From Herbaspirillum rubrisubalbicans (GTDB taxonomy: Bacteria; Pseudomonadota; Gammaproteobacteria; Burkholderiales; Burkholderiaceae_D): 64,000 nucleotides of DNA. The stretch spans positions 1,736,001 through 1,800,000 of the forward strand of contig NZ_CP024996.1 in assembly GCF_003719195.1 (NCBI RefSeq), written 5' to 3'. The position numbers and the translations under genes were made by a program. The notes beneath the pieces were generated by a model. The model had not been told where the DNA came from. It saw only the letters and a list, made by a program, of their open reading frames with translations, and searched no databases. Below are positions 8,758 through 25,088 of the stretch, piece after piece. The first letter of the stretch is position 1. The number at the start of each line of letters is the position of its first letter.

Positions 8758-9549
8758 TCAGAAGGCCGGTACGATGGCGCCCTGGTATTTTTCTTCGATA
8801 AATTTCTTCACATCCGGCGAATTGAGCGCGGCAGCGAGCTTCTTGATGGCGGGGCTGTCCTTGTTGTCTTCACGCGCCACCAGCAGGTTGGCATAGGGCG
8901 AGTTGGCATCTTCGATGAACAGCGAATCCTTGACCGGGTTCAGCTTGGCTTCCAGTGCATAGTTGGTATTGATCAGGGCCACATCGACCTGGTTGAGCAC
9001 GCGCGGCAGGGTGGCCGCTTCCAGGGCTCGGAACTTCAGCTTCTTGGGGTTTTCCACGATGTCCTTCTGGGTCGAGGAAATGTTGGAGCTGTCCTTGAGC
9101 TTGATGAGGCCATTGCGCGCCAGCAGCAACAAGGCGCGGCCGGAGTTGGACGGGTCATTGGGGATGGCGATGGTCGCGCCATTGGGAATGTCGGCCACCT
9201 TCTTGTACTTCTGCGAGTACGCGGCGAAGGGCTCGACGTGGACCTTGGTGATCGGCACTTCGATATCGTTCTTGTGGCTCTTCTTGAACTGGTCCAGATA
9301 GGGCTGGTGCAGGAAGAAGTTGCCATCGACCTGTTTCTCGTTGGTCTGCACAGCCGGCTGCACGTAGTCGGTGAAGACCTTGACCTGCAGATCGATGCCT
9401 TCCTTGGCCAGCACCGGCTTGATGTGTTCCAGGATCTCGGCGTGCGGCACCGGGGTGGCGGCAATCACCAGCTTGTCGGCGGCGTGCGCGCCCACGGTGA
9501 AGGCCAGGGCGGCGGTCGCCACCAGATGAGGGATCAGTTTGCGGATCAT
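8758..9549 (-). CDS. metQ: Methionine ABC transporter substrate-binding protein
   Basis: The ATG at 9547-9549 follows GGAG and gives 263 residues; the ten residues upstream in the same frame look non-coding. It is a NlpA/MetQ-family protein that binds methionine and feeds MetNI. Recognisable segments are LVIAATPVPHAEILEHIKP, the tyrosine-rich Q-V-DGNFFLHQPYLD segment, IPNDPSNSGRALLLLA and INTNYALEA. The signal peptide ends in VGAHAA with no lipobox Cys, so it is probably soluble and periplasmic, unlike the E. coli lipoprotein. It is the last gene of the metN-metI-metQ operon, followed by a clear terminator. Confidence 0.92.
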   Translation of the reverse strand: MIRKLIPHLVATAALAFTVGAHAADKLVIAATPVPHAEILEHIKPVLAKEGIDLQVKVFTDYVQPAVQTNEKQVDGNFFLHQPYLDQFKKSHKNDIEVPITKVHVEPFAAYSQKYKKVADIPNGATIAIPNDPSNSGRALLLLARNGLIKLKDSSNISSTQKDIVENPKKLKFRALEAATLPRVLNQVDVALINTNYALEAKLNPVKDSLFIEDANSPYANLLVAREDNKDSPAIKKLAAALNSPDVKKFIEEKYQGAIVPAF

Positions 9550-9642
9550 GTTTTTCTCCATTCTTGGTATGACAATCAATTGAACGTCGGTTGACGTAGC
9601 GAGGGATTCGTCCTTCGTGGGGAGCGAACCCGAATCTATTTG

Positions 9643-10341
9643 CTACTTACGGGTGAAGCGCAGCACCAGGCGGTCGCCGAAGAATTGCAGCAACTGCACC
9701 AGCACCACCAGGATGGCCACCGTGACCACCATCACCTCGGTCTGGAAGCGCTGGTAACCGTAACGGATGGCCAGGTCGCCCAGGCCGCCGCCGCCGATCA
9801 CGCCCGACATGGCGGCATACGACATCAAGGTGATGGCGGTGATGGTGATGGCCGCCAGCAAGCCTGGCAGCGCCTCGGGCAGCAGGGCACCGAAGATGAT
9901 CTGGCGACGCCTTGCACCCATGGCGGTACAGGCTTCGAGGATGCCGCGGTCGATTTCGCGCAGCACGCTCTCGGTCAGGCGCGCGAAGAAGGGCGCGGTG
10001 CCGATCACCAGCGGCGGAATGGCGCCGGTCACGCCCAGCGAAGTCCCCACCAGCCACAGCGTGAAGGGGATCAAGAGGATCAGCAGGATCAGGAACGGCA
10101 CCGAGCGCAGTACGTTGACCACCAGCGAGAGCACCCAGTAGAGACCGCGCTGTTCCAGCAACTGGCCGCGATTGGTCAGGAACAGCAGGATCCCCAGCGG
10201 CAGTCCCAGCAGCACCGTGAACAACAGCGAGCCGCCGGTCATGGCCAGGGTTTCCAACGTCGCGTCGCCGACTTCGCTCCAGTCGATCACTGACAGGTCG
10301 ATCTGGCCCAGCAGGGCCGACAGGGAAGACAGTGCGCTCAT
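9643..10341 (-). CDS. metI: Methionine ABC transporter permease
   Basis: A 232-residue inner-membrane protein with five or six hydrophobic segments. It should form the homodimeric channel of the methionine importer. The EAA loop that docks onto MetN is visible (EACTAMGARRRQIIFGALLPEALPGL, positions about 138-163), and the end of the family is typical (GVIGGGGLGDLAIRYGYQRF). The start overlaps the metN stop in an ATGA, as usual for this operon. metQ follows after 93 bp. Confidence 0.95.
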   Translation of the reverse strand: MSALSSLSALLGQIDLSVIDWSEVGDATLETLAMTGGSLLFTVLLGLPLGILLFLTNRGQLLEQRGLYWVLSLVVNVLRSVPFLILLILLIPFTLWLVGTSLGVTGAIPPLVIGTAPFFARLTESVLREIDRGILEACTAMGARRRQIIFGALLPEALPGLLAAITITAITLMSYAAMSGVIGGGGLGDLAIRYGYQRFQTEVMVVTVAILVVLVQLLQFFGDRLVLRFTRK

Positions 10342-11348
10342 GCCAGCACCTCATGATCGATGCCGGACTCGCGCAGCCGCGCCAGCACTTGGCCGACGGC
10401 CTCGGTGCCGCCGGAAAACTCCACCAGCAATTGCCCGTAGGGTGTGTCCTTGATGCGCGAGACGGTGCCGCGCACGATGGTGGCCAGCGCGCTGGTGGCC
10501 GCCGTCAGTTGCGACAGGATGGGTTGTGCCGCGACTTCACCGGCATAGGTCAGGCGCACCAGTGTGCCATCGGCGCGCCGCTGGTAGAGATTGTCGCTGG
10601 CATCCCAGGCATGGCTTTCGGCCAGCAGCGAACGGGTGACCGCGTGTTGCGGGCGCAGGAAGATGTCCACCACGCGGCCCTGTTCGGCCACTGCGCCATG
10701 TTCCAGCACGGCCACGCGGTCGCAGATGCTGCGGATGACTTCCATCTCGTGCGTGATGAGCACGATGGTCAGGCCCAGCTTGCGGTTGATGTCCAGCAGC
10801 AGGCGCAGGATGGCCTGGGTGGTCTCGGGGTCCAGGGCCGAGGTGGCTTCGTCGCACAACAGCAGGCGCGGGGTATTGGCCAAGGCGCGGGCAATGCCTA
10901 CGCGCTGCTTCTGGCCGCCCGACAGTTGCGCCGGATACTGGTCGCGGTGCTGTTCCAGGCCCACCAGTTGCAGCAGTTCGGTCACGCGCGCGGCGCGTTG
11001 TTGGCGGCTGTAGCGGCCGGTGATCTTGAGCGGCCAGTCGATGTTCTGCGCCACCGTCTTGGCGTTGAGCAGGTTGAAATGCTGGAAGATCATGCCCACC
11101 CGCTGGCGCAGGCCCAGCAGGGCTTCATGGCCGAGGCCGGTGATGTCTTCGCCGTCGATGAGGACACGCCCGCTGTCGGGGCGTTCCAGGACGTTCAAGG
11201 TGCGGATCAGGGTACTCTTGCCGGCGCCGGAGCGGCCGATGATGCCGAAGATCTCGCCCTGGGCGATGTCCAGGTTGATGTCGCGCAGGGCGATGATGTC
11301 GCGCTGGCCGGCATGGTAGGTCTTGTGGAGTTGCTCGATGCGAATCAC
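10338..11348 (-). CDS. metN: Methionine ABC transporter ATPase
   Basis: A 336-residue ATP-binding subunit. Walker A is GRSGAGKST, the Q-loop lies in MIFQHFNLL, the ABC signature is LSGGQKQR, Walker B is LLLCDEATSALDP and the switch His is ITHEM. The last 90 or so residues form a NIL domain, the methionine-sensing regulatory domain that shuts the pump when methionine is high inside the cell. The start is a GTG (11346-11348) with a weak Shine-Dalgarno sequence. Together with metI and metQ it makes a complete methionine importer. The cysteine desulfurase gene lies 163 bp upstream on the same strand. Confidence 0.95.
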   Translation of the reverse strand: MIRIEQLHKTYHAGQRDIIALRDINLDIAQGEIFGIIGRSGAGKSTLIRTLNVLERPDSGRVLIDGEDITGLGHEALLGLRQRVGMIFQHFNLLNAKTVAQNIDWPLKITGRYSRQQRAARVTELLQLVGLEQHRDQYPAQLSGGQKQRVGIARALANTPRLLLCDEATSALDPETTQAILRLLLDINRKLGLTIVLITHEMEVIRSICDRVAVLEHGAVAEQGRVVDIFLRPQHAVTRSLLAESHAWDASDNLYQRRADGTLVRLTYAGEVAAQPILSQLTAATSALATIVRGTVSRIKDTPYGQLLVEFSGGTEAVGQVLARLRESGIDHEVLA

Positions 11349-11511: not shown

Positions 11512-12708
11512 TTAGTGTACCTCTTGCAACACCTCATGCGCCAGCACCTGGCGCACGGTGGCCACTACGTAGTCGATTTCGGCCTCGGTAGTGCCCCGGC
11601 CCAGCGAAAAGCGCACTGCATTGCGCGCCACCTCCGGCGAGCGACCGATGGCCAGCAGCACGAAGGAGGGTGCGGCCGCAGCCGAATTGCAGGCCGAACC
11701 GGCCGACACGGCGATACCCAGCAACTGGCTGCCCAGCGTGCCATAGCGCGTGGGCGGGAAGCTCACGTTCAGGTTGTGTGGCACGCGGGCGTGGGCGCTG
11801 CCATTCAATTGCACCCCCGGCAAATCGGCCAGGCCCTGCCACAGCCGGTCGCGCAGGGCGCGGATGCGCTGTCCTTCCGTCACCAGCAACTGGCCGGCCA
11901 GGGCGAAGGCTGCACCCATGCCCACGATCTGGTGGGTGGCCAGGGTGCCTGAACGCATCCCGTTTTCATGACCGCCGCCATCGATCTGGGCTTCCAGCTT
12001 CAGGTTCGGGTTGCTGCGTACATATAGCGCACCGATACCCTTGGGACCGTAGACCTTGTGCGCCGAAAAGGACATCAGGTCCACCTTCAGTCGCGCCAGA
12101 TCGATGGCGATCTTGCCGGCCGCCTGCACGGCGTCCACATGGAAGACCACCCCCTGCTCGGCGCAGACCTCGCCCAATGCGGCGATGGGCTGGATCACGC
12201 CGATCTCGTTGTTGACGTACATGATCGAGGCCAGCAGCGTGTCCGGGCGCAGTGCGGCGCGCAACTGCTGCGGGGTGACCAGGCCATCGGCGTCCGGCTG
12301 CAGGTAGCTGACCTCGAAGCCGGCCTTCTCCAGCGTATGCATGGTGTCCAGCACCGCCTTGTGTTCGGTGGCCACCGTGATGAGATGCTTGCCACGTCCT
12401 TGTGCACGCAGTGCATGGGCCGTTCCCTTGAGCGCCAGGTTGTTGGATTCGGTGGCACCCGAGGTCCAGATGATTTCATCCGGGCGGGCGCCCACCAGGC
12501 CGGCCACCTGCGCACGCGCCTGCTCCACCGCGCGTCGCGCTTCCCAGCCGAAGGGGTGGGAGCTGCTGGCGGCGTTGCCGAACTTGTCGGTGAGGAAGTC
12601 GCACATTACGCGGGCCACTTGCGGATCGACCGGCGTGGTGGCGCCATAGTCCAGGTAGATGGGAAAGCGCAGATCGGCCGAGGGGCGACAGGGGGCTGGG
12701 GCGTTCAT
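11512..12708 (-). CDS. PLP-dependent cysteine desulfurase (NifS/IscS family)
   Basis: A 398-residue class V aminotransferase-fold enzyme that takes sulfur from cysteine, giving alanine and a protein persulfide. The PLP lysine sits in SFSAHKVYGPKG. The substrate-binding start is YLDYGATTPVD, the PLP-contact ATEHKAVLDTM is present, and the catalytic Cys is in SAGSACNSAA, the position of SSGSACTSA in IscS. No iscU, iscA or hscA genes adjoin it, so it is not a housekeeping isc gene. It stands at the head of a sulfur-amino-acid block and faces a divergent LysR regulator, so its expression is probably tied to sulfur supply. It could supply sulfur for clusters or recycle imported cysteine. Confidence 0.9.
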   Translation of the reverse strand: MNAPAPCRPSADLRFPIYLDYGATTPVDPQVARVMCDFLTDKFGNAASSSHPFGWEARRAVEQARAQVAGLVGARPDEIIWTSGATESNNLALKGTAHALRAQGRGKHLITVATEHKAVLDTMHTLEKAGFEVSYLQPDADGLVTPQQLRAALRPDTLLASIMYVNNEIGVIQPIAALGEVCAEQGVVFHVDAVQAAGKIAIDLARLKVDLMSFSAHKVYGPKGIGALYVRSNPNLKLEAQIDGGGHENGMRSGTLATHQIVGMGAAFALAGQLLVTEGQRIRALRDRLWQGLADLPGVQLNGSAHARVPHNLNVSFPPTRYGTLGSQLLGIAVSAGSACNSAAAAPSFVLLAIGRSPEVARNAVRFSLGRGTTEAEIDYVVATVRQVLAHEVLQEVH

Positions 12709-12924: not shown

Positions 12925-13863
12925 ATGGATCTGAATCAGCTGGAGGCCTTTGCGGCGGTAATGACCCTGGGCAGTGTGACCGGTGCCGGTCGCAGCCTTG
13001 GCCGTTCGCAGCCGGCCGTCAGCAAGGCCATCGGCGAGCTGGAATCTGAACTTGGGTATGCCCTGTTCGACCGCAATGGCCCGCGCGTCACGCCCACGGC
13101 CAAGGCCTTCCTGCTCTATGAAGAAGTGGAACGCTCGCTGGTGGGCCTGCGCAGCATCCGCGAGCGCGCCCTCGAAATCGCCCGTGAAGAAGTGCATCCG
13201 GTCCATCTGGTGGCCACCCCTGCGCTGGCCTCGACCATCGCCCCGGCAGCCTTGCAATTACTGGCCTGCGAGAAAGATCGTGCGTTCCCGGAACACATCC
13301 ACCTGCGCAGCGCCTCGGCCGAGCAGGTGGTGCACGCGGTCCTGCACCGCACCGTCAGCTTGGGGCTGACTTCGCTGCCGGTGGCGCATCGCGGCTTGGA
13401 GCTGCACTGGATTGGCGAAGCGCCCTGCGTGGCGGTGGTGCGCGCCGATCATCCGCTGGCCGGTCGCGACAAGCTCACCCGCGCCGCCCTGCGTGGCCAG
13501 CGCGTCATCACCATGTCCAATCGCTATCGCCTGCGCCAGCGGGTGGAAACTGCGCTGGGCGAGGATAGCCGGCTGGATGTGGCCATCGATACCAATACTT
13601 CCTTCAACGCCATCATGGCCGCGCGTGCCGGATTGGGGGTGGCGCTGGTGGAGCCGGCCACGGCCTATGGGATGCCCATCGAGGGGATGGTGGTCAAGCG
13701 CCTGGCGGTGGAGATTCCTTTCTATTTCGGTGTGGTCACGCCCTATGGCAAGCCGGTCGAAGGGGTGACGCAACGACTGATCGATGCGGTGGAGACCGCC
13801 GCACGCCATACCTTGCAGGGCTTCGTCAAGCGGGATGCCAGCCTGCATGACGAATTGTTATAA
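12925..13863 (+). CDS. LysR-family transcriptional regulator of the sulfur island
   Basis: A 312-residue LysR protein. The N-terminal winged helix is clear (MDLNQLEAFAAVMTLGSVTGAGRSLGRSQPAVSKAIGELE) and the effector-binding domain takes the rest. It lies divergently from the cysteine desulfurase and 144 bp before the flavoprotein/ABC operon on its own strand, so it probably controls one or both. In enteric bacteria CysB and Cbl, also LysR proteins, play this part for sulfur-limitation genes, but this protein is not obviously CysB itself. The start is supported by AAGGA and the usual LysR N-terminus. Confidence 0.9.
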   Translation: MDLNQLEAFAAVMTLGSVTGAGRSLGRSQPAVSKAIGELESELGYALFDRNGPRVTPTAKAFLLYEEVERSLVGLRSIRERALEIAREEVHPVHLVATPALASTIAPAALQLLACEKDRAFPEHIHLRSASAEQVVHAVLHRTVSLGLTSLPVAHRGLELHWIGEAPCVAVVRADHPLAGRDKLTRAALRGQRVITMSNRYRLRQRVETALGEDSRLDVAIDTNTSFNAIMAARAGLGVALVEPATAYGMPIEGMVVKRLAVEIPFYFGVVTPYGKPVEGVTQRLIDAVETAARHTLQGFVKRDASLHDELL

Positions 13864-14007: not shown

Positions 14008-15480
14008 ATGCAAGATACCGAACCGACATTGACCACGGCTGCGGCCCCGCAAGGACTGGCCGCCCTGGAAGCGCGCCTGCGCCAGGACCTGGACTGGCTG
14101 GCCCTGCCCGGCAAGGCGTGGACGCCCAAGATCGAGCGCGCTGGCGTGCCGGTGATCGATGTGGCCATCATCGGCGGTGGCCAGGCCGGCATGGCGGCCT
14201 CGGTCGCCTTGACGCACCTGGGCATTCCCAACGTCATCTATGACCAGTCGCCCAAGGATTTCGAAGGCCCATGGGCGACCACCGCGCGCATGGAAACCCT
14301 GCGCTCGCCCAAGACCCTGACCGGCCCGGCGCTGGGCTTTCCGGCGCTGACTTTCCGCGCCTGGTTCGAGGCACAGTTCGGCTTGGCCGCCTGGGAGGCG
14401 CTGGACAAGATCCCGCGCCTGCAATGGATGGATTACCTGCGCTGGTTCCGCCGCGTGATGCAGCTGGATATCCGTAACGAGCACCGGGTGCTGGCCGTGC
14501 AGCCGCGCGCCGATGGCATCGTGGCATTGCAACTGCAATCGCCTGCGGGCCAATCGACCGTGTTGGCACGCCGCGTCGTCGTGGCCACTGGTCGCGATGG
14601 CCTGGGTGGCGCCTACCTGCCGCCGTTGGCCGGGCAACTACCACGCGATCGCTGGGCGCATTCGTCTGACGTGTTCGACTATGCCAGTCTGAAGGGCAAG
14701 CGCGTGGGCGTCGTTGGCGGTGGTTCCTCTGCCATGGACAGCGCGGCCACCGCGCTGGAAGAGGGGGCGGCGCGGGTCGATCTGCTGATCCGCCGCAAGG
14801 ACCTGCCGCGCATCAACAAGGGCAAGGGCTCGGGCAACCCCGGCCTGGTCAATGGTCACCTGCACTTGCCGGATGCATGGAAATGGCGCATCCGCCACTA
14901 TGTCAATGCACAACAGGTGCCGCCGCCCTCGGGGAGCACGCGCCGCGTCTCGCGCTTTGCCAATGCGCGCTTCCTGCTGGGCACCGCCATCGAGTCGGTG
15001 GAGCTCCAGCGAGATGGCGCGCTGCTGCTGCACACCAATCGCGGCCCGCTGGAACTGGATTTCCTGTTCTTCTCCACCGGCTTCAAGATCGACTGGAGCC
15101 TGCGCAGCGAATTCAAGGAGATCGCCCCGCACATCCTCAACTGGAGCGACCGCTACACCCCACCCGCCGGCGAAGAAGACCAGGAACTGGCCGACTCGCC
15201 TTACCTGGGACCGGTGTTCGAATTCCAGCAGAAGACCCCCGGCAGCTTGCCAGGCCTGGAACGCGTGCACTGCTTCTGCTATCCGGCCGCAGCCAGCCAT
15301 GGCACGGTCTCTGGCGACATCCCCGCCATCAGCGATGGCGCCTATCGCCTGGCGCAGGGCATTGCTGCGCTGATGTACAGCGAAGACGTGGAGGTCCACT
15401 ACCGCAATATCCAGTCCTACGAAGAGCCGGAACTGGAAGGCGATGAATGGACCGAAGCGCCCTGGGAGCTGCCCGCATGA
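14008..15480 (+). CDS. FAD/NAD(P)-binding flavoprotein, first gene of the sulfur operon
   Basis: A 490-residue two-dinucleotide-fold flavoprotein. The FAD motif is IIGGGQAGMAA (about 52-62) and a second GxGxxG-type NAD(P) motif is VVGGGSSAMDSA (about 235-246). The arrangement fits flavin-containing monooxygenase-like enzymes and related NAD(P)H oxidoreductases. The classic FxGxxxHxxxW fingerprint is not seen, so the exact class is open. It is the first of ten closely packed genes and its ATGA stop overlaps the permease start. A role in oxidising an imported organosulfur compound, or in supplying electrons to its partners, is an inference from context. Confidence 0.8.
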   Translation: MQDTEPTLTTAAAPQGLAALEARLRQDLDWLALPGKAWTPKIERAGVPVIDVAIIGGGQAGMAASVALTHLGIPNVIYDQSPKDFEGPWATTARMETLRSPKTLTGPALGFPALTFRAWFEAQFGLAAWEALDKIPRLQWMDYLRWFRRVMQLDIRNEHRVLAVQPRADGIVALQLQSPAGQSTVLARRVVVATGRDGLGGAYLPPLAGQLPRDRWAHSSDVFDYASLKGKRVGVVGGGSSAMDSAATALEEGAARVDLLIRRKDLPRINKGKGSGNPGLVNGHLHLPDAWKWRIRHYVNAQQVPPPSGSTRRVSRFANARFLLGTAIESVELQRDGALLLHTNRGPLELDFLFFSTGFKIDWSLRSEFKEIAPHILNWSDRYTPPAGEEDQELADSPYLGPVFEFQQKTPGSLPGLERVHCFCYPAAASHGTVSGDIPAISDGAYRLAQGIAALMYSEDVEVHYRNIQSYEEPELEGDEWTEAPWELPA

Positions 15481-16451
15481 GTGCAGCGATTGCGAAAAGC
15501 GTGTTGCAGGCACTGATGGTGGTGTTGTTGATGACGGTGATCGTCTTCTTCGGCCTGCACATGATCGGCAATCCGGTCGATATCCTGATCGGCCAGGACG
15601 TGGACCAGGTGGACCGCCTGCGCATCATCCAGGAACTGGGGCTGGACCAGCCGGTATGGCGCCAGTACCTGGCCTTCCTCAATGGCGCGCTGCACGGCAA
15701 CCTGGGCAATAGCTTCGTCTACAACACGCCGGCCATCCTGCTGATCTTCCAGCGCCTGCCGGCCACGCTGGAGCTGGCGTTCGCCGCTCTGTTGCTGGCC
15801 CTGCTGGTGGGGGTGCCGCTGGGGCTGCTGGCGGGGATGAAACCGGATCATCCGGTTTCGCGCCTGGTGATGACCACCAGCATCCTCGGCTTTTCGCTGC
15901 CGACCTTCTGGATCGGCTTGATGCTCATCATGGCCTTCTCGGTCACGTTGGGCTGGCTGCCCTCGGGCGGTCGCGGCCAGACCGCCGAGCTGTTCGGCGT
16001 GCAGTGGTCGTGGCTGACCGTCGATGGCTGGCGTCACATGATCCTGCCGGCGCTCAACCTGTCGCTGTTCAAGATTTCGCTGGTGATCCGTCTCACCCGC
16101 GCCAATGTGCGCGAGGTGCTGCCGATGGACTTCGTCAAGTTCGCCCGCGCCAAGGGCTTGTCGCCGGCACGGGTGGTGTTGATGTATGTCTTGCGCAATA
16201 CCTTGATCCCGCTAGTGACCGTGGTCGGGCTGGAGTTCGGCTCTACCATTGCCTTTGCGGTGGTGACCGAAAGCATCTTCGCCTGGCCCGGCGCCGGCAA
16301 GCTGATCCTGGACAGCATCAATGCACTGGACCGGCCGGTGATCGTGGCTTACCTGATGGTGATCGTGTGCATGTTCGTCACCATCAACCTGGTGGTGGAC
16401 GTGCTCTACAAGATTCTGGATCCGCGTGTGCGGGTGGAGGCCCGGGCATGA
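15477..16451 (+). CDS. Peptide/nickel-type ABC transporter permease 1 (DppB-like)
   Basis: The ATG at 15477 overlaps the previous stop as ATGA; 324 residues with six predicted membrane helices. DppB/OppB features are present: an N-terminal helix with VIVFFGLHMIGNPVDIL, the periplasmic LGLDQPVWRQYLAFLNGALHGNLGNS region, and the EAA loop FVKFARAKGLSPARVVLMYVLRN that contacts the ATPases. It should pair with the next gene to form the channel of a peptide-type importer. The substrate may be a sulfur compound rather than a peptide, given the neighbours. Confidence 0.92.
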   Translation: MSAAIAKSVLQALMVVLLMTVIVFFGLHMIGNPVDILIGQDVDQVDRLRIIQELGLDQPVWRQYLAFLNGALHGNLGNSFVYNTPAILLIFQRLPATLELAFAALLLALLVGVPLGLLAGMKPDHPVSRLVMTTSILGFSLPTFWIGLMLIMAFSVTLGWLPSGGRGQTAELFGVQWSWLTVDGWRHMILPALNLSLFKISLVIRLTRANVREVLPMDFVKFARAKGLSPARVVLMYVLRNTLIPLVTVVGLEFGSTIAFAVVTESIFAWPGAGKLILDSINALDRPVIVAYLMVIVCMFVTINLVVDVLYKILDPRVRVEARA

Positions 16452-17410
16452 GCGCGCCGCACACTGACATCCATCTGACCCAAGAACAGGTGCGCGCCCG
16501 CGTGGCCGAACTGTCGGCCTTCCAGCCCCCGCGCCGCGAGTCGCCCTGGCGGCGCGTGATGCGTCACTTTGTGGCGTCGCGCTCGGCCATGCTGGGGCTG
16601 GTGATCGTGCTGCTGCTGATCGTGGGCGCGGTGGCCGCACCGTGGATCACGCCGCAGAATCCCTATGACCTGATGCAACTGGATGTGCTCGATGCGCGCC
16701 TGCATCCTGGCACCATCAACGGCGCCGGTACCTATACCTATTGGCTGGGTACCGATGGCCAGGGCCGCGATCTGGTCTCGGCCATCCTCTATGGCTTGCG
16801 CATCAGCGTGGGCATCGGTGTGGGCTCGGCGTTGATCGCCGGTGTCATCGGCACGCTCATCGGCCTGCTGGCCGCGTATGTCGGCGGCAAGCTCGATACC
16901 TTGTTGATGCGCTTTGCCGATCTGGTGCTGTCCTTCCCCTCCATCCTGGTGGCGATGCTGATCCTGGCTTATGTGGGCAAGGGCATCTTCAACGTGATGG
17001 CCACCCTGGTGGTGCTGGAATGGGCCTATTACGCCCGCACCGCGCGCGGGCAGGCGCTGGTGGAGCGACGCAAGGAATACGTGGAAGCGGCACGCGGGCT
17101 GAATTTATCTTCCTGGCGCATCATGGTGCGGCACATCCTGCCCAACTGCCTGCCACCGCTGATCGTGATCGGCACGCTGCAGGTGGCGCGTGCCATCACG
17201 CTGGAGGCGACCCTGTCCTTCCTCGGCCTGGGCGTGCCCATCACTGAGCCCTCGCTGGGCCTGCTTATTTCCAATGGTTACCAATACATGCTCTCGGGTG
17301 AATACTGGATCAGCTTTTATCCCGGCATCACGCTGTTGATCGTGATCGTCGCCATCAACCTGGTGGGCGATCGCCTGCGCGACATCCTCAATCCGAGGTG
17401 GCAGAAGTGA
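16448..17410 (+). CDS. Peptide/nickel-type ABC transporter permease 2 (DppC-like)
   Basis: The start at 16448 overlaps the previous stop as ATGA and gives 320 residues. A soluble N-terminus of about 45 residues is followed by the first helix and the DppC N-terminal domain, the YWLGTDGQGRDLVSAILYGLRIS segment typical of DppC/OppC, and the EAA loop (YVEAARGLNLSSWRIMVRHILPN). It completes the membrane channel with the upstream permease. Reading on from further upstream would overlap the previous gene by over 400 bp and is rejected. Confidence 0.92.
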   Translation: MSAPHTDIHLTQEQVRARVAELSAFQPPRRESPWRRVMRHFVASRSAMLGLVIVLLLIVGAVAAPWITPQNPYDLMQLDVLDARLHPGTINGAGTYTYWLGTDGQGRDLVSAILYGLRISVGIGVGSALIAGVIGTLIGLLAAYVGGKLDTLLMRFADLVLSFPSILVAMLILAYVGKGIFNVMATLVVLEWAYYARTARGQALVERRKEYVEAARGLNLSSWRIMVRHILPNCLPPLIVIGTLQVARAITLEATLSFLGLGVPITEPSLGLLISNGYQYMLSGEYWISFYPGITLLIVIVAINLVGDRLRDILNPRWQK

Positions 17411-18390
17411 GCGCGACGACCCTGGACGTGCGCCATCTGCGCACGCATTTCTTCACGCCCGATGGTGTGCTGCCGGCGGTCGATGATGTCTCGCTGTCGG
17501 TGGGGCGTGGTCGCATCCTGGGCCTGGTCGGCGAATCCGGCTCGGGCAAGAGCGTCACCGGGTTTTCCATCCTGGGCATGGTCGATGCGCCGGGGCGCAT
17601 CGTCGGCGGCGAAATCCTGTTCCAGGGCCGCGACCTGGTGCGCATGGACAAGGCTTCGTTGCGCGAACTGCAGGGAAATCGCATCGCCATGATCTTCCAG
17701 GATCCGATGATGACCTTGAACCCGGTGCTCAAGGTCGAGGCGCAGATGGTCGATGCCGTGCTGGCGCACAGCAAGGTGAGCCGCCAGCAGGCGCGTGAGC
17801 TGGCGCGTCAGACCCTGGGCATGATGGGCATCGCTAGTCCCGAGGAGCGCCTGCAGGCCTATCCACACCAGTTGTCGGGCGGGATGCGCCAACGGGTGGC
17901 CATTGCCATCGCCATGCTGCACAAGCCTGACCTGATCATTGCCGACGAACCCACGACTGCGCTGGATGTGACCATCCAGGCGCAGATCCTGTCGGAAGTG
18001 CAGAAACTGGCGCGCCAGCATGGCACTGCGCTGATCTGGATTACCCACGATCTGTCGGTGGTGGCCGGGTTGGCCGATGAAGTGGCGGTGATGTATGCCG
18101 GGCGCATTGTCGAGCAGGGCAGTGTGGATGCGGTACTCGATAGCCCCCTGCATCCCTATACCCAAGGCCTGATCGGCAGCCTGCCCAGCAACAACCGGCG
18201 CGCAACGCGTCTGCGCCAGATTCCCGGCATGACGCCCAACCTGCTGCACCTGCCGCCCACCTGCGCTTTTGCTGCGCGTTGCGAGCGTCTCAGTCAGCAC
18301 TGCCTGACGGCCCCTGCCATCAGCGAGCCGCGGCCGGCACATCTGGTGCGCTGCTATCACCCTATCTCGATGAATGAGCACCATGGATAA
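17407..18390 (+). CDS. Peptide-type ABC transporter ATPase 1 (DppD-like)
   Basis: An importer ATPase with Walker [10 protein letters not shown]-loop [12 protein letters not shown], signature LSGGMRQR, Walker [13 protein letters not shown] and switch ITHDL. The C-terminal oligopeptide/dipeptide transporter extension carries the Cys cluster [14 protein letters not shown], an iron-sulfur-like motif common in DppD. A GTG at 17407 in a GTGA overlap, with GAGG at correct spacing, fits the overlap pattern of the two genes before it better than the GTG nine bases upstream. It works as a heterodimer with the next gene. Confidence 0.92.
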
Positions 18391-19390
18391 GGCCGTCATC
18401 CCCCTCATCGAAACCCGCGCAGTCAGTCGTCGCTTTGGCCAGCGCCACCAGGGCTGGCTGGAGCGCCAGTTGCAGGCGCGCGGCTGGAGCCGCCCACCTG
18501 CCATCACGCACGCACTCGACCAGGTCGACCTGAAGGTATTGCCGGGTGAAGTGGTCGGCCTGGTCGGGGAATCCGGCTGCGGCAAGTCCACGCTGGGACG
18601 CGTGGCCTGTGGCTTGCTCGACCCTTCGGAAGGCCAAGTGCTGGTCAATGGTCGCGATCGCGCCAGCCTCACCCGTGGCGAAGAGGCCCAGGCGCGCTTG
18701 CAGGTGCAAATGATTTTCCAGAATCCCTATGCCAGCCTGAACCCGCGCCTTCGCGTCGACCAGATCGTCGGTGAGGCGGCCCAGGTCAATGGCAAGGTCG
18801 AGGGCGACCTGGATGACTACGTCTGTCGCCAGTTGCTGCGCGCCGGCCTTGATCCGGCCCTGCGCGACCGTTATCCGCACCAGTTCTCGGGTGGCCAGCG
18901 TCAGCGCATCGGCATCGCCCGGGCGCTGGCCGTGCAGCCGCAGATGCTGGTCTGCGATGAAGCGGTGGCGGCGCTGGATGTGTCGATCCAGGCGCAGATC
19001 CTGAACCTGTTCATGGACCTGCGCGAAGAACTGGGCCTGACCTATCTGTTCATCAGCCATGACCTGGGCGTGGTGGAGCACGTGTCGGACCGCGTGGTCA
19101 TCATGTACCTGGGCAGGGTGGTGGAGAGTGCGCCGGTGGCCGAGCTGTTCGGCCAGCCCAATCATCCCTACACGCAAGCCCTGCTGGCCGAGGTGCCGCG
19201 CATGGGGGCGCGCAAGAAGGAATTCACCGCCATCAAGGGGGAAATCCCCAGCCCCCTGAATCCGCCGGGTGGCTGTCACTTCAACCCGCGCTGCCCGCAC
19301 GCCACGCAGCGCTGTCGTGAAGAACAGCCCTTGTTGCGCGAAATTGCGCCGGGGCACATGAGTGCCTGTCATCTCAATGATGGCCGTTGA
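18374..19390 (+). CDS. Peptide-type ABC transporter ATPase 2 (DppF-like)
   Basis: A 338-residue partner ATPase with Walker A GESGCGKST, Q-loop MIFQNPYASLNP, signature FSGGQRQR, Walker B LVCDEAVAALDVS and switch ISHDL. Note LVCDEA rather than LVADEP. The C-terminal transporter extension has the Cys-rich end CHFNPRCPHATQRCREEQP. The start overlaps the upstream ATPase by 17 bp. With the two permeases and the binding protein downstream, the importer is complete. Confidence 0.92.
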   Translation: MSTMDKAVIPLIETRAVSRRFGQRHQGWLERQLQARGWSRPPAITHALDQVDLKVLPGEVVGLVGESGCGKSTLGRVACGLLDPSEGQVLVNGRDRASLTRGEEAQARLQVQMIFQNPYASLNPRLRVDQIVGEAAQVNGKVEGDLDDYVCRQLLRAGLDPALRDRYPHQFSGGQRQRIGIARALAVQPQMLVCDEAVAALDVSIQAQILNLFMDLREELGLTYLFISHDLGVVEHVSDRVVIMYLGRVVESAPVAELFGQPNHPYTQALLAEVPRMGARKKEFTAIKGEIPSPLNPPGGCHFNPRCPHATQRCREEQPLLREIAPGHMSACHLNDGR

Positions 19391-19424
19391 GATGGATTTG
19401 ATGACCTAGAACCGAGCAGTCAAG

Positions 19425-19436
19425 AACTAAGAACTT
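19425..19436. promoter_or_regulatory. AACTAAGAACTT motif before the binding-protein gene
   Basis: Copy of the CTAAGAACTT motif in the 91-bp gap between the second ATPase and the binding protein, 46-57 bp before the ATG. It may mark an internal promoter or operator of the operon. Confidence 0.35.
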
Positions 19437-19481
19437 GGATATCCCGCAGTGCTTACACCCTGACCACAGAGGAACCCGACC

Positions 19482-21068
19482 ATGAAGAAAACCCTCCTGA
19501 CCCGCCTGCTGGCCGTCGCCCTGACCGGTGCCGCGCTGGCCGTTGCCGCCGATGCGGCGCGTGCGCAGAACCTCAACATCGCCTTTGCCGATCCGCTCTC
19601 TTCGCTTGATCCGCAACTGAACAATCACGCCGGCGACCGCTCGGTGGACCTGCATTTCTGGGACCTGCTGGTCCAGAACGACTACAACAAGCTGGTGCCG
19701 GGCCTGGCGGTGAGCTGGAAGAACATCGACCCCAAGACCTGGGAATTCAAGCTGCGCCCCAACGTCAAGTGGCAGGACGGCAAGCCCTTCACCGCCGACG
19801 ACGTGATCTTCTCCTACCAGCGTGCGCGCGCCGTGCCGGGCAGCGTGGCCACCTTCGCCGGCTACCTGCGTACGGTGGAATCGGTCACCGCCAAGGACCC
19901 GCTGACCCTGGTCATCAAGACCAATATCCCTAATCCCGACCTGCCGTTGAACCTGGCCTCGGTACATATCGTCAGCAAGCACGTGGGTGAAAAATCCAGC
20001 ACCGAGAACTACAACAGCGGTGCGGCCGTGATCGGTACCGGCCCCTACAAGTTCGTCTCCTACACGCCAGGCGACCGCGTGGTGATGCAGCGTAACGACG
20101 ACTACTGGGGCGGCAAGGCCTTGTGGGAAAAGGTCAACTACCGCTACATCAACAACGGCGCCGCACGCACTGCGGCGCTGCTTTCGGGCGATGTGGACGT
20201 GATCGACAAGGTCTCGGTGTCCGACCTGGCCAAGCTCAAGCAGTCACCCAACGTCAAGGTGTATCCCTACAACGGCTTGCGCGTGCTGCTGATCCAGCCC
20301 AGCTTCCACGAAGGCCCGAGCCCCTTCATCACCGACAACAACGGCAAGCCGCTGGAGAAGAACCCGCTGTTGGACGTGCGCGTACGCCGCGCCATGTCGC
20401 TGGCGATCAACCGCAAGGCCCTGATCGATCGTATCCTGCAAGGTGCCGCCACCGAGGCTAACCAGTGGATGCCGGCCGATACCTTCGGCTACAACCCGGA
20501 GATCAAGAACATTCCCTTCGATGCCGCGCAGGCCAAGAAGCTGCTGGCCGAGGCTGGTTTCCCGGAAGGCTTCAAGCTGACCATCCACGTACCCAACGAC
20601 CGCTATCCGCAAGCGCCGGAAACCATGCAGGCAGTGGCCCAGTTCTGGACCCGTATCGGCATCAAGACCCAGGTCGAGGTGCTGCCGTGGGCGTCCTATT
20701 CTTCGCGCGCCAACAAGAACGAATTCGCGGTCTCGGTGCTGGCCTGGGGTAACGGGACCGGCGAAGCCAGCTATGCACTGGTCAACGTGCTGGGCACGGT
20801 GGACCCCAAGAAGGGCATCGGCGCCTCCAACTGGAACCACTACAGCAGCCCGGCGGTGGACAAGGCCCTGGCCGATTCCACTGCGGAATTCGATGCCGCC
20901 AAGCGCGAAGCCATCCTGCGCGGCGCGGCCAAGACGGTCTCGGATGAAGTGGGCGTGATCCCGCTGTATCACTACCAGAACATCTGGGCCGCCAAGAAGG
21001 GGCTGAAGGTCACTCCCATCAGCAGTGACCGCACCACCGCCATGATGGTGACCCAGGACAAGAAGTAA
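19482..21068 (+). CDS. Peptide-type ABC transporter substrate-binding protein
   Basis: A 528-residue periplasmic family-5 binding protein with signal peptide ending near DAARAQ. Family hallmarks are LDPQLNNHAGDRSVDLHFWD, the WEFKLRPNVKWQDGKPFTADDV segment and IGTGPYKFVSY. The fold binds peptides, nickel complexes or small organic compounds for the DppBCDF-like importer upstream. From memory of named TIGR families, the set of binding protein, CMD protein, AhpD-like protein and luciferase-like monooxygenase recurs together in Klebsiella and Agrobacterium (KPN_01854/01858 and Avi_7169/7170 families). This should be checked; the substrate is unknown to me. Confidence 0.9.
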   Translation: MKKTLLTRLLAVALTGAALAVAADAARAQNLNIAFADPLSSLDPQLNNHAGDRSVDLHFWDLLVQNDYNKLVPGLAVSWKNIDPKTWEFKLRPNVKWQDGKPFTADDVIFSYQRARAVPGSVATFAGYLRTVESVTAKDPLTLVIKTNIPNPDLPLNLASVHIVSKHVGEKSSTENYNSGAAVIGTGPYKFVSYTPGDRVVMQRNDDYWGGKALWEKVNYRYINNGAARTAALLSGDVDVIDKVSVSDLAKLKQSPNVKVYPYNGLRVLLIQPSFHEGPSPFITDNNGKPLEKNPLLDVRVRRAMSLAINRKALIDRILQGAATEANQWMPADTFGYNPEIKNIPFDAAQAKKLLAEAGFPEGFKLTIHVPNDRYPQAPETMQAVAQFWTRIGIKTQVEVLPWASYSSRANKNEFAVSVLAWGNGTGEASYALVNVLGTVDPKKGIGASNWNHYSSPAVDKALADSTAEFDAAKREAILRGAAKTVSDEVGVIPLYHYQNIWAAKKGLKVTPISSDRTTAMMVTQDKK

Positions 21069-21072
21069 GCAC

Positions 21073-22404
21073 ATGCCCAACTTCTCCATCGAAGTCAGCC
21101 CGATCGACGACCTGATCGACGTGCCACGGCGCATCGTCGTGCGGGGCGCACATCCGGGCGAGCCGGTGCGAATTTCCTCATCTACCTTGCGCAATGGCGC
21201 GCAGTGGTGCAGCACGGCCTGCTACATCGCCGATGCCTATGGCAATGTGGATGTGAGCATGAACCCGGCCATCGACGGCGACTACTATGGCATCGACCCG
21301 ATGGGCTTGCTGTGGTCGCAGAAACCGGTGCAGGCCGGGCGGCGCGACAACTTCCATGCCGACGTGATGGCGCCGCTGGAAACCACGCTGACCGTCTCTG
21401 CGCTGGACCAGCCGGGGCTGCTGCCCTGCATCCCGGCCAGCACGGTGCTGGTGCAGCGCCTGGCATCAGAAGGTGTGGTGCGTCGTGAAGTACGCGAGGC
21501 GGGCCTGGTCGGCACGCTATTCCTGCCGGCTACGCCGGGACCGCATCCGGCCGTGATGATCCTCAACGGCTCGGGGGGCGGCATCAATGAGCCGCGGGCG
21601 GCGCTGTATGCCGCGCGGGGCTACGCGGCCTTTGCCCTGGCTTACTTCAAGGCGCCGGGCTTGTCGGATTACATCTCCAACACACCGCTGGAATATTTCG
21701 AGCGTGGCCTGGACTGGTTGCGTGCCGAAGTCCAACCGCTGCACGACTTCGTGGCCATCAGCGGCCAGTCGCGCGGTGGCGAACTGGTGCTGCTGCTGGG
21801 TGCGACCTTCCCGCAGAAGGTCTCGGCGGTGCTGGCCTATGTGCCCAGTGCGCTGGTGCATAGCGGCCAGAACGCTGCCGACCCGGCGGTGGGGCGGGAA
21901 GGGCCGACCTGGCTCTTGCGTGGCGAGCCCCTGCCACATCAATGGCAGGGCAACCGCAGCGCCAGCTGGGCGCCATTCGATGACGGCCCGGCACCGCATC
22001 GGCATGAACTGGCGATGCTGACTGCCTTGCAGGATGAAGAGGCGGTGGCACGCGCGCGCATTCCGGTGGAGTGCATCCAGGCGCCGGTACTGCTGCTGTC
22101 GGCTACCGATGATGGCTCCTGGCCTTCCAGCCTCTATTGCGGCATGGTGCGTGACAAGCTGGCTGCGGTATCGCATCCCTGGCCGGTAGTCTGGCGCAAC
22201 TATGCCCATGCCGGCCATTCCATCCTGTTCCCGTTCGTGCCGACCACGCAGACCACCTATGCGCACCCGGTCTCGGGCCGCGTCAGCACCGGCGGTGGCG
22301 AACCGCAAGCCAACGCCCGCGCCGATCTCGACGCCTGGCAGCAGGCGCAGCAATTCCTGCGCGATGCACTGGCCAGACATTCATCCAATAAGGAGACCCC
22401 ATGA
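21073..22404 (+). CDS. BAAT-like acyl-CoA thioesterase / acyltransferase-fold hydrolase
   Basis: A 443-residue protein starting 4 bp after the binding-protein gene. The N-terminal ~130 residues look like the beta-sandwich of the acyl-CoA thioester hydrolase / bile-acid-CoA:amino-acid N-acyltransferase family. The C-terminal ~290 residues form an alpha/beta hydrolase domain. The nucleophile elbow is GQSRGGE with Ser at 233, the acid is likely in LSATDDGSW and the His in YAHAGHS. Family acyltransferases use Cys here and hydrolases use Ser, so hydrolysis of an ester, amide or thioester is the more likely reaction. In the operon it may cleave the imported compound. It has no signal peptide and should be cytosolic. 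Confidence 0.8.
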   Translation: MPNFSIEVSPIDDLIDVPRRIVVRGAHPGEPVRISSSTLRNGAQWCSTACYIADAYGNVDVSMNPAIDGDYYGIDPMGLLWSQKPVQAGRRDNFHADVMAPLETTLTVSALDQPGLLPCIPASTVLVQRLASEGVVRREVREAGLVGTLFLPATPGPHPAVMILNGSGGGINEPRAALYAARGYAAFALAYFKAPGLSDYISNTPLEYFERGLDWLRAEVQPLHDFVAISGQSRGGELVLLLGATFPQKVSAVLAYVPSALVHSGQNAADPAVGREGPTWLLRGEPLPHQWQGNRSASWAPFDDGPAPHRHELAMLTALQDEEAVARARIPVECIQAPVLLLSATDDGSWPSSLYCGMVRDKLAAVSHPWPVVWRNYAHAGHSILFPFVPTTQTTYAHPVSGRVSTGGGEPQANARADLDAWQQAQQFLRDALARHSSNKETP

Positions 22405-22922
22405 GTACCCCCGTCTACGACATCAGCAAGGATGTCATCGACCAACTGGCTGGCCTGACGGCCGGCAGCCCCCTGCACGGCCTGCGCCATCAGCGCGACA
22501 AGGTTGCCGTGGCCTCGCAGGGCAGCTATGACACGCTCTTCGATCCAGCCCTGGCAGGCATCGGCCTGGACGAACGCCTGTTGGTAGCGCTCTACGCCTG
22601 CCGCCTGGCGGGCGCGACCGACCTGGCCGATCACTATCGCGCCCGCGCGCAAGCGCTGCCCGCCGAGGCTGCGCAACTGGCCGCAGCCGACAGCGGTAGC
22701 CCGGAACAACTGCCCGAAGGCCGCTTGCGCGCCATGCTGGTCTTTACTCGCGCGCTCACCCAGCGCCCGGTGGAAGGTGACAAGGCCGCCATTGAAAAGC
22801 TGCCCGCCGCCGGCATCAGTACGCCCGCCGTGGTGGCGCTGTCGCAGCTGATCGCCTTCGTGTCCTATCAATTGCGCGTGGTCGCCGGCTTGAAGGCCAT
22901 GCGTGCTGCCGCGGCTCAATAA
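22401..22922 (+). CDS. CMD-domain protein without catalytic CxxC (Avi_7170-like)
   Basis: A 173-residue helical protein starting in an ATGA overlap with the BAAT-like gene and led by AAGGAGA. The fold resembles carboxymuconolactone decarboxylase/AhpD proteins (LVALYACRLAGATDLADHYRARA), but the redox CxxC is missing; the single Cys in that helix sits in YACRLAG. I recall a family named CMD domain protein, Avi_7170 family, that pairs with the AhpD-like protein encoded next. It may be a non-catalytic partner or a divergent enzyme. Function unknown. Confidence 0.75.
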   Translation: MSTPVYDISKDVIDQLAGLTAGSPLHGLRHQRDKVAVASQGSYDTLFDPALAGIGLDERLLVALYACRLAGATDLADHYRARAQALPAEAAQLAAADSGSPEQLPEGRLRAMLVFTRALTQRPVEGDKAAIEKLPAAGISTPAVVALSQLIAFVSYQLRVVAGLKAMRAAAAQ

Positions 22923-22933
22923 GGAGCAGCCTC

Positions 22934-23539
22934 ATGAGCGATATCATCAAGGCCAATGGCTTTACCAACGAGACCCTGGAATGGGATGCCTGGCTGGATG
23001 TGATCCAGCTGGAGGAGGCCAGCGAAGACCAGATCAAGGTGCTGGAAGAAAGCCACCCCAAGGCCAAGACCTCGGACTACTACCTGTTCCTGGCGCACCA
23101 GCCCGACATCCTGCGCCAGCGTTCGGCCGCCTTCAACGCCATCATGTATGCCCCGGGCGGCCTCTCGCGTGCCGAGCGCGAACTGGGTTCGCTGGTGGTC
23201 TCGCGCATCAATGGTTGCGTGTATTGCGCCTCGGTCCATGCACAGCGTTTCGAGCAGTTGGCCAAGCGTAACGATACCGTGCGCCAGGTGTTTGATACCC
23301 CTTATGGCGCCGGGGTGGATGCGCGTGAACAGGCCATCGCCAAGTTCTCGGCCGAGTTGACCGAGACACCAGGGCAGATCGGTGCAGCGCAGATCAAGGC
23401 GCTCTACGAGGTGGGCTTGAGCGAACTGGAAGTGCTGGACCTGATCCATTCGGTGGCCATCTTTGCCTGGGCCAATCGCTTGATGCTCAACCTGGGCGAG
23501 CCGGTGTTTGCCGATGGCAGCAAGGCTGAAGCGAAGTAA
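22934..23539 (+). CDS. AhpD-fold alkylhydroperoxidase-like protein (Avi_7169-like)
   Basis: A 201-residue helical protein 11 bp after the CMD gene, with AAGGAG before its ATG. The AhpD active site is complete: Glu in RAEREL (81/83) and C95-V-Y-C98-A-S-V-H102. In Mycobacterium tuberculosis, AhpD reduces peroxides with this CxxC and is itself reduced by a lipoyl protein (dihydrolipoamide succinyltransferase) and Lpd. That is striking here because the next gene encodes a lipoyl H-protein-like carrier. It may act as a peroxidase, a disulfide reductase or an oxidoreductase on a sulfur intermediate. Cytosolic. Confidence 0.85.
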   Translation: MSDIIKANGFTNETLEWDAWLDVIQLEEASEDQIKVLEESHPKAKTSDYYLFLAHQPDILRQRSAAFNAIMYAPGGLSRAERELGSLVVSRINGCVYCASVHAQRFEQLAKRNDTVRQVFDTPYGAGVDAREQAIAKFSAELTETPGQIGAAQIKALYEVGLSELEVLDLIHSVAIFAWANRLMLNLGEPVFADGSKAEAK

Positions 23540-23569
23540 CCCCTCTATCCATTCAACGAGGAAACTGTG

Positions 23570-23947
23570 ATGAATATTCCCGATCACCTGGTCTATGCCC
23601 AGACCCATGAGTGGGTCAAGCTGGAGGCCGACGGCACGCTGACCATCGGTATCACCGATTTCGGCCAGGAGCAGTTGGGGCCGCTGGTCTACGTGGACAT
23701 GCCGAGCGTGGGCAAGGCCCTGGCGCGCGGGGCTGAATCCGGCATCGTGGAGTCCAACAAGACGGCCTCGGACCTTCATGCACCGGTTGATGGCGAGGTG
23801 ATCGCCATCAACGAGGTGCTGGTGGAGCGGCCTGATGCCATCAACGAGGCGCCCTATGAGCAGTGGATCTTCAAGCTCAAGCCGACCGCGCCGTTTTCGT
23901 CAGAGGGTTTCCTCGACGCGGCGGCTTACATCAAGCTGGTTTCCTGA
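23570..23947 (+). CDS. Stand-alone lipoyl carrier protein, glycine-cleavage H-protein-like
   Basis: ATG at 23570 follows CGAGGAAA (a GTG one codon earlier is less likely); 125 residues. It has the whole H-protein shape: HEWVKLEADGTLTIGITDFGQEQLG, then the lipoylation hairpin ESGIVESNKTASDLHAPVDGEV with Lys 64 at the modified position, and the YEQWIFKLKP end. No gcvT, gcvP or lpd gene is near, so it is not part of a normal glycine cleavage operon. GcvH-like lipoyl proteins outside glycine cleavage are known in sulfur oxidation (LbpA with sHdr) and with sirtuin/macrodomain pairs. Here it ends a sulfur operon just after an AhpD-like gene, suggesting it shuttles electrons or a bound sulfur group. 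Confidence 0.88.
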   Translation: MNIPDHLVYAQTHEWVKLEADGTLTIGITDFGQEQLGPLVYVDMPSVGKALARGAESGIVESNKTASDLHAPVDGEVIAINEVLVERPDAINEAPYEQWIFKLKPTAPFSSEGFLDAAAYIKLVS

Positions 23948-23960
23948 TTCGTCCTTGCGC

Positions 23961-25088
23961 TCAGGAGGCTGAGGCGGCGGCGCGGATATCGAAGGCGCCG
24001 CCGGTCTGTGCGCGGTCACGCAAGGTGACTGCGTTCTTGCCCAATAGCGGGAACACCAGTTCGGCAAAGCGGATCGCTTCTTCCAGGTGCGGGTAGCCGG
24101 ATAGCACGAAGGTATCCACGCCCAGATCCGCATATTCCTGCAGCCGTTCGGCCACCGTGGCGGCATCGCCCACCAGCGAGGTACCGGCCCCGCCGCGCAC
24201 CAGTCCCACCCCGGCCCAGAGGTTAGGGGCGATTTCCAGTTTGTCGCGCCGACCGCCATGCAGGGCCGCCATTCTTTGTTGTCCTACGGAATCCATCCTG
24301 GCGTAGTTTTCTTGGGCGCGGGCGATGTCGTCATCGGTGAGTTTGCTGATGAGACGGTCGGCAGCGGCCCAGGCTTCGGCGGTGGTCTCACGCACGATGG
24401 CGTGCAGGCGCACGCCGAAGCGCACGGTGCGGCCGTGTTTGGCGGCACGTTCGCGCACATCTTCGATCTTCTGTTTGACCGCAGCCGGTGGCTCGCCCCA
24501 GGTGAGGTAGGCATCCACGTGTTTGGCGGCCAACGCGTGGGCGGCGGGGGAGGAGCCGCCGAAGTAGAGGGGCGGGTAGGGTTGTTGCACGGCCGGGTGG
24601 AAGATCTGGCCGCGGCGGATGCGGAAGTGTTTGCCTTCGTAGTTGACGATCTCGCCTTGCAGCAGTTTGCGCCAGATGGTGAGGTATTCGTCGGCGGCTT
24701 CGTAGCGTTCGTCATGCTTGAGGAAGACGCCGTCGGCTTCGAGTTCGGTGGCGTCGCCGCCGGGGACGACGTTGAGGAGCAGGCGGCCGTTGAGGGCCTG
24801 GTCGAGGGTGGCGGCTTGTCGGGCGGAGGGGCCGGGGCCGCCGAGCGAGGTTCTCAGAGCTACCAGCAGTTTGATGCGCTGGGTGACCGGGACCAGGCTG
24901 GCGGCGACGATCCAGGGGTCGAGGCAGGAGGCGCCGGTGGGGATGAGCAGGCCGTCGTAGCCGAGGTTTTCGCTGGTGACGGCGATCTGGCGCATGTAGT
25001 CAAGGGTGGGGGCGCGGCCGAAGTCGGATTTGCCGAGGTAGCGGGTGTCGCCTGAGGTGGGGAGGAACCAGAAGAGTTCTAATGACAT
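23961..25088 (-). CDS. ssuD: FMNH2-dependent alkanesulfonate monooxygenase (SsuD family)
   Basis: A 375-residue luciferase-like monooxygenase with strong similarity along its length to E. coli Ssu[20 protein letters not shown] at the start, [67 protein letters not shown] and [17 protein letters not shown]. SsuD releases sulfite from alkanesulfonates using FMNH2 and O2; the FMN reductase (ssuE) and SsuABC are not beside it. It converges on the lipoyl-protein operon (13 bp apart). The start follows AAGGAAA, and a large inverted-repeat element begins about 130 bp upstream. Substrate could be a specific sulfonate rather than a broad range. Confidence 0.92.

Follow-up and report, generated by a model that had tools for sequence, protein, structure and literature searches.

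Lipoyl-dependent peroxidases and AhpD relays are already known. In the account given in parts of PMC8945050, AhpD is reduced by a lipoamide protein, and Ohr and OsmC are also lipoyl dependent. A different use of a lipoyl protein is seen in LbpA of sHdr sulfur oxidation, a homologue of GcvH that acts outside glycine cleavage (PMC6067878, in the passages on this family). We analyzed a stretch of 64,000 nucleotides from Herbaspirillum rubrisubalbicans (NZ_CP024996.1, positions 1,736,001 to 1,800,000; the window), in which a ten-gene operon ends with the genes for an AhpD-like protein and a GcvH-family lipoyl carrier. Judged by gene content, this GcvH has no part in glycine cleavage and belongs with the operon. 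By analogy with the lipoyl-dependent AhpD, Ohr and OsmC, it could be a dedicated carrier that supplies electrons to the AhpD-like protein, a proposal that we favor over each of its rivals but regard as evenly poised.

The locus resembles the mycobacterial relay (AhpC-AhpD-lipoyl E2-Lpd) in combining a protein of the AhpD fold family with a lipoyl protein as the presumed reductant (PMC8945050, in part). Unlike in that relay, the carrier is a GcvH and not an E2 subunit, and the gene pair lies in a transport-monooxygenase operon that lacks AhpC and whose AhpD-like protein is not a member of TIGR00777. The AhpD-like protein passes the TIGR00778 core model (40.7 bits; cut-off, 27.8), and its Glu/CxxC/His motif is present in all 73 homologous loci, some genomes being counted twice. 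The spacing of this motif is the same as in mycobacterial AhpD. A study of Trichomonas hydrogenosomes reportedly links, as its title puts it, parts of an incomplete glycine decarboxylase complex and OsmC to peroxide reduction, and only the H and L proteins of that complex are said to be present in these organelles; that system belongs to a eukaryote and uses OsmC, whereas here the protein is AhpD-like. In its other genes the operon is similar to the KPN_01854-01858 and Avi_7169-7170 clusters (TIGR04027-TIGR04030), which combine a peptide-type importer, a flavin-dependent enzyme and CMD and AhpD-like domains. The CMD protein of the window meets the Avi_7170 model TIGR04029, the AhpD-like protein stays under the Avi_7169 model TIGR04030 (186.5 versus 233.15), and the solute-binding protein is under the cut-off of TIGR04028. 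The window operon differs from these clusters by the added GcvH, and in their Pantoea example the monooxygenase is luciferase-like and CMD is fused to AhpD.

Why does the cell have an H protein? The source genome, a single contig of 5,617,593 bases rated 100% complete, contains no match to GcvP, and the operon GcvH is its sole GcvH. The GCV_T model gave a single match (44.5 bits; positions 48-157 of 255), in a frame with the sequence KGCYPGQ; we take this to be the YgfZ motif, so the match looks like YgfZ. The initial annotation had noted that glycine-cleavage genes were missing from the operon, a statement that now extends to the whole genome. It had also considered that the carrier might be the only GcvH of the organism and work in glycine cleavage. 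It is indeed the only one, but with no GcvP and only a YgfZ-like GCV_T match this service is ruled out. The lack of GcvP and of a plausible GcvT, together with the co-occurrence in the genus described below, is why we assign the carrier to the operon. LipB scored over its cut-off in the same genome, and an adjoining frame on the same strand carries CTRRCPFCDV, which we assume to be typical of LipA and therefore call LipA-like. Lipoylation of the operon GcvH via the usual LipB/LipA route is possible with these genes. We rejected GcvH as a needed relay in lipoate assembly, because the presence of LipB and the LipA-like frame makes such a relay unnecessary (assembly route as given in part of PMC10332631).

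Within the genus, the predicted co-occurrence of the two genes without GcvP held. The AhpD gene (E below 1e-100) is present in 30 of 34 Herbaspirillum genomes, and in 29 of these 30 the GcvH gene follows immediately 3' on the same strand; the same 29 genomes have no GcvP above the cut-off of 26 bits, and five genomes of the genus give GcvP-model matches below it (18.8-21.3 bits). Chance gene order was rejected, since an arrangement found in 29 of 34 genomes is not fortuitous. The four genomes without an AhpD ortholog (G016, G017, G026 and G027) yielded neither GcvH nor GcvP over the cut-offs; G027 is 63% complete, and its sole AhpD-like gene is only 43% identical. In G016 one GCV_H match (21.2 bits) lies within a frame of 1225 residues. 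Second, weak GCV_H matches (20.8-24.3 bits, three of them above the cut-off of 22.2) occur in five operon genomes, in frames of 611-655 residues; these extra matches in long frames are probably lipoyl/biotinyl domains of other enzymes. The search found 31 GcvH loci, 20 with the operon and 11 elsewhere. The full operon is seen in 19 of the 20 operon loci, the remaining one ending early, and short loci of the genus show just BAAT-CMD-AhpD plus GcvH, or no GcvH in the case of genome G023. One operon-bearing contig (L051) is titled Duganella sp., falls with Herbaspirillum in the trees and has the same GcvH as genome G004; the title is probably a misnomer.

G023 is the sole Herbaspirillum genome with GcvP. 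Its gcvH adjoins gcvP (L079), and its operon (L154) stops after the AhpD gene, without GcvH, the next gene being a convergent peptidase-like gene. A tree built from nine concatenated operon proteins of 19 of the 20 operon loci (the truncated L041 was left out) places the G023 operon within the GcvH-bearing clade, with ultrafast bootstrap (UFB) values of 99 and 100 around it. A smaller CMD and AhpD tree, in which L154 replaced the short locus L026 of this genome, leaves the position of G023 inside the genus open. The gcv-linked GcvH of G023 falls outside the clade of operon GcvHs and groups with the GcvH of a family relative (93/87). The nesting suggests a replacement, and these trees are most simply read as showing an operon GcvH that was in place early in the genus and was later lost in the lineage with gcvHP.

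The operon GcvH of the window beats both GcvH models (149.4 versus 117 and 124.2 versus 115.85), and its lipoyl Lys is K64 if translation starts from the ATG at 23570 and K65 from the GTG at 23567. In the GcvH tree the 29 operon proteins group as a single clade (support 100/99) on a long stem (0.8; L130 was trimmed to 125 residues for this tree), and in the alignment all 29 retain the lipoyl Lys. They have G33, N64, H71, Q99 and F110 in common; at the first four of these sites no more than two of 39 comparison proteins agree per site, in a set that is not phylogenetically balanced. Alignment A2 was made without L050, whose end coordinate ran past the stop codon. The residue preceding the lipoyl Lys is Asn in 29 of 29 operon proteins and Val, Thr, Ser or Ala in the comparison proteins. 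Lipoyl domains of E2 subunits presumably carry Asp before the Lys, so the Asn might, speculatively, be an E2-like change. A search of plasmids with the GcvH matched 161 records, every one at less than 60% identity. Could the gene be a relic of a glycine-cleavage system that has been lost, or have been acquired as a passenger, with no present role? The source genome offers it neither GcvP nor GcvT as a partner and the stem of its clade is long, but the unbroken retention of the lipoyl Lys, the presence of GcvH in all but one of the 30 Herbaspirillum genomes that have the AhpD gene, and purifying selection make this highly improbable. The median ratio of nonsynonymous to synonymous substitution rates (dN/dS) is 0.171 (range, 0.029-0.458; 159 usable of 190 pairs, i.e., dS between 0.05 and 1.5).

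Outside the genus the module varies. The same nine genes without GcvH occur on Caballeronia and Variovorax plasmids, Burkholderia, Paraburkholderia, Pararhizobium and Azospirillum records retain the genes for the flavoprotein, CMD and AhpD-like proteins in the vicinity of other transporters, and in Pantoea the cluster is luciferase-like, of the TIGR04028 type (483 plasmid records had an AhpD match, and eight were examined). This comparison of gene content identifies flavoprotein-CMD-AhpD as the core, with importer, thioesterase and GcvH as variable additions. In 12 of the 22 loci from other genera (L141-L143, L148-L153, L064, L068 and L070), a single open frame spans the CMD and AhpD genes, which suggests that the two proteins probably work as a single unit. 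The AhpD gene (E <= 1e-40) is present in 16 of 399 Burkholderiales genomes, two of them Herbaspirillum. Each of the remaining 14 has one GcvH, which lies beside GcvP and never at the AhpD gene; linkage is not obligate. In the family to which the window belongs, 14 genomes lacking the operon comprise 11 with both GcvH and GcvP and three with neither. A linked GcvH where gcvP is missing fits a module that would need some lipoyl H protein, but it would fit equally a module that elsewhere does without one.

Gene order, motifs, the missing gcvP and gcvT, co-occurrence and purifying selection are the observations from which we propose the following relay. The importer would take up a small compound, probably one containing sulfur, and the flavin monooxygenase would then oxygenate it. 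The CMD/AhpD unit might use its CxxC to reduce a peroxide, sulfenate or disulfide intermediate. Lipoyl-GcvH would re-reduce the AhpD-like protein, and lipoamide dehydrogenase (Lpd), presumably present, could keep lipoyl-GcvH reduced with NADH.

The lipoyl arm might instead carry substrate: attached to the lipoyl thiols, an acyl or sulfur group would be handed on among the flavoprotein, the AhpD-like protein and the thioesterase-like protein. This is akin to the proposal that LbpA, a GcvH homologue, presents sulfur substrates (PMC6067878, in part), and a thioesterase-like protein is indeed encoded in the operon. The initial annotation had drawn the comparison with LbpA, and this did not stand. 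Members of the LbpA family are described as having two strictly conserved Cys residues, some archaeal ones excepted (passages of PMC6067878), but the window GcvH has no Cys at all and none of the 29 operon proteins has more than one, and we rejected its membership of the family. The source genome also differs from the LbpA setting in having the canonical LipB/LipA. Neither an hdr gene nor a dedicated lipoate ligase turned up in the operon or in its annotated near neighbours, the rest of the genome not having been searched for them. Without these Cys residues, and with a flavoprotein-CMD-AhpD core that exists elsewhere without the thioesterase or the present importer, carriage of substrate appears quite unlikely.

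Several observations weigh against electron transfer from GcvH to the AhpD-like protein. The latter fails the TIGR00777 model for AhpD by a wide margin (19.5 bits versus 191.95), and no AhpC-type partner is encoded among the ten operon genes. The 29 linked genes amount to about one gain and one loss, as the trees suggest, and not to 29 independent events, and that the four genomes without an AhpD ortholog also have no GcvH is partly trivial, as linked genes are kept or lost together. Operons of gcvHP organisms come without a linked GcvH; the housekeeping GcvH may serve there in trans, or no carrier may be needed. Finally, GcvH without GcvP is not restricted to this genus: in an order-level sample of 200 Burkholderiales (GcvH at E <= 1e-12 and GcvP at E <= 1e-40, tallied by hand), it occurs in 33 genomes, two of them Herbaspirillum and 31 among the 198 others, and in eight of 12 such loci examined no peroxidase gene adjoins gcvH.

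In the whole sample GcvH was present in 170 genomes, GcvP in 139 and GcvP without GcvH in two; an absent GcvP may reflect incompleteness in some genomes, such as G159 (85% complete). The 12 stretches came from 11 of the 31 genomes from outside the genus, and none of them holds the present operon. In four (G123, G164, G082 and G159) the gene next after gcvH is tpx, for a thiol peroxidase, with accB-accC-prmA upstream; the Tpx proteins of G123 and G082 passed the NCBIfam cut-off of 123 (with 240.4 and 254.3 bits), and those of G164 and G159 were recognized from 70% identity. The residue before the lipoyl Lys in these GcvHs is Val, not Asn. One further genome without a GcvP match, G212, has gcvH between genes for an HI0933-like flavoprotein and a DAO-family (DadA-like) protein (L165, 3945-7902), and family f25 and genus g15, with five sampled genomes each, have GcvH and no GcvP match throughout. 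This control makes the operon less unique and yet points in the same direction, toward H proteins beside thiol peroxidases. It also bears on the idea that GcvH just shares the operon promoter and serves other enzymes (e.g., Ohr, OsmC or thiol peroxidases) as a general donor of lipoyl groups or of electrons, the AhpD-like protein being reduced in another way. The frequency of GcvH without GcvP, and the four loci with tpx beside none with the operon, are what such a donor would predict, but in Herbaspirillum GcvH never lies away from the operon except in the genome with gcvP, genomes without the AhpD ortholog have no GcvH, and LipB/LipA remove the need for a GcvH relay in lipoate assembly; we consider a general donor unlikely.

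Taken across the order, a tentative and rather doubtful generalization would be that GcvHs without glycine cleavage recur as lipoyl carriers dedicated to supplying thiol peroxidases with electrons, AhpD-like in Herbaspirillum and separately Tpx in other Burkholderiales, drawing on NADH, Lpd and lipoate instead of thioredoxin. In the open-access papers that were searched, we found no bacterial operon with a GcvH devoted to a relay of this kind. A weak lead from another organism is a list of predicted ECF41 promoters of Rhodobacter sphaeroides, which names gcvH and a CMD gene (PMC3426412). If the relay is true, lipoate gains a further role in bacteria, that of an electron carrier in its own right, a reductant can be named for the large and little-characterized CMD/AhpD group found in many transporter-monooxygenase clusters, and there is a reason for some bacteria to keep GcvH without glycine cleavage. 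Overall, the earlier interpretation is partly supported.

The layout of the operon is as first described. All ten open reading frames lie on one strand, with intergenic distances, in order, of -1, -1, -13, -17, 91, 4, -4, 11 and 27 bases, and 13 bases separate the last gene from the convergent SsuD gene; the CMD protein without CxxC, the AhpD-like protein with Glu/CxxC/His and the GcvH-like protein with its lipoyl Lys were confirmed as well. Protein families were assigned via NCBIfam and Pfam models.

Table 1. Genes of the window operon and its neighbours, and stretches with gcvH and tpx in other Burkholderiales
Feature	Coordinates	Strand	Basis or remark
MetQ-MetI-MetN-like importer, neighbour	8758..11348	-	NlpA lipoprotein, BPD_transp_1, ABC_tran + NIL
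IscS-like cysteine desulfurase, neighbour	11512..12708	-	IscS model 528 bits, under cut-off 548
LysR-family regulator, possible operon regulator	12925..13863	+	Pfam HTH_1 + LysR_substrate
Flavoprotein, probably flavin monooxygenase	14008..15480	+	Pyr_redox_3 57.3 bits
ABC importer permease, OppB/DppB type	15480..16451	+	NCBIfam
ABC importer permease, OppC/DppC type	16451..17410	+	NCBIfam
ABC importer ATPase, OppD type	17398..18390	+	NCBIfam
ABC importer ATPase, DppF/OppF type	18374..19390	+	NCBIfam
Family 5 solute-binding protein (SBP_bac_5)	19482..21068	+	PF00496 323.3 bits
BAAT/acyl-CoA thioesterase-like hydrolase	21073..22404	+	PF04775 (Bile_Hydr_Trans) + PF08840 (BAAT_C)
CMD-domain protein without CxxC	22401..22922	+	TIGR04029 109.0 bits, cut-off 100.75
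AhpD-fold protein, E-x11-CVYC-x3-H	22934..23539	+	TIGR01926 (peroxidase-related) 216.9, cut-off 81.8
GcvH-family lipoyl carrier, ESNK motif	23567..23947	+	GcvH models
SsuD alkanesulfonate monooxygenase, convergent neighbour	23961..25088	-	TIGR03565 588.4 bits, cut-off 518.2
gcvH-tpx stretch, locus L158	5480-6375		
gcvH-tpx stretch, locus L159	5977-6902		
gcvH-tpx stretch, locus L160	5980-6981		
gcvH-tpx stretch, locus L166	5983-7207		

The flavoprotein resembles flavin monooxygenases weakly (45.7 bits with the ArsO model, far under its cut-off of 425), and its nearest solved chain is a monooxygenase (4usr; E value, 2.5e-7); a PHROGs match was dismissed as meaningless. A LysR homologue precedes its gene in many homologous loci. 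The peptide-type importer is complete, with two permeases, two ATPases and one binding protein. None of the Opp/Dpp-type permeases and ATPases exceeds its NCBIfam equivalog cut-off, and the solved-structure matches of the binding protein include many peptide- and agrocinopine-binding chains. The closest PDB match of the BAAT-like protein is human ACOT2 (3hlk; E value, 2.9e-49), with a Ser aligned in GxSxGG that we take to be the nucleophile.

What does the importer take up? The weak point of the initial annotation is its label of a sulfur operon, which is based on the neighbours, namely the MetNIQ-like importer and the IscS-like gene upstream and SsuD downstream. Going by these neighbouring genes, an organosulfur substrate is slightly favored. 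SsuD lies downstream in 10 of the 20 operon loci, and three of the remaining 10 end too early to judge. In genome G155 (L144, 6008-10013), a permease and a binding protein of the sulfonate/nitrate/taurine type, below the NCBIfam cut-offs for the named sulfonate models, are encoded near the operon, as is an acyl-CoA dehydrogenase-like protein.

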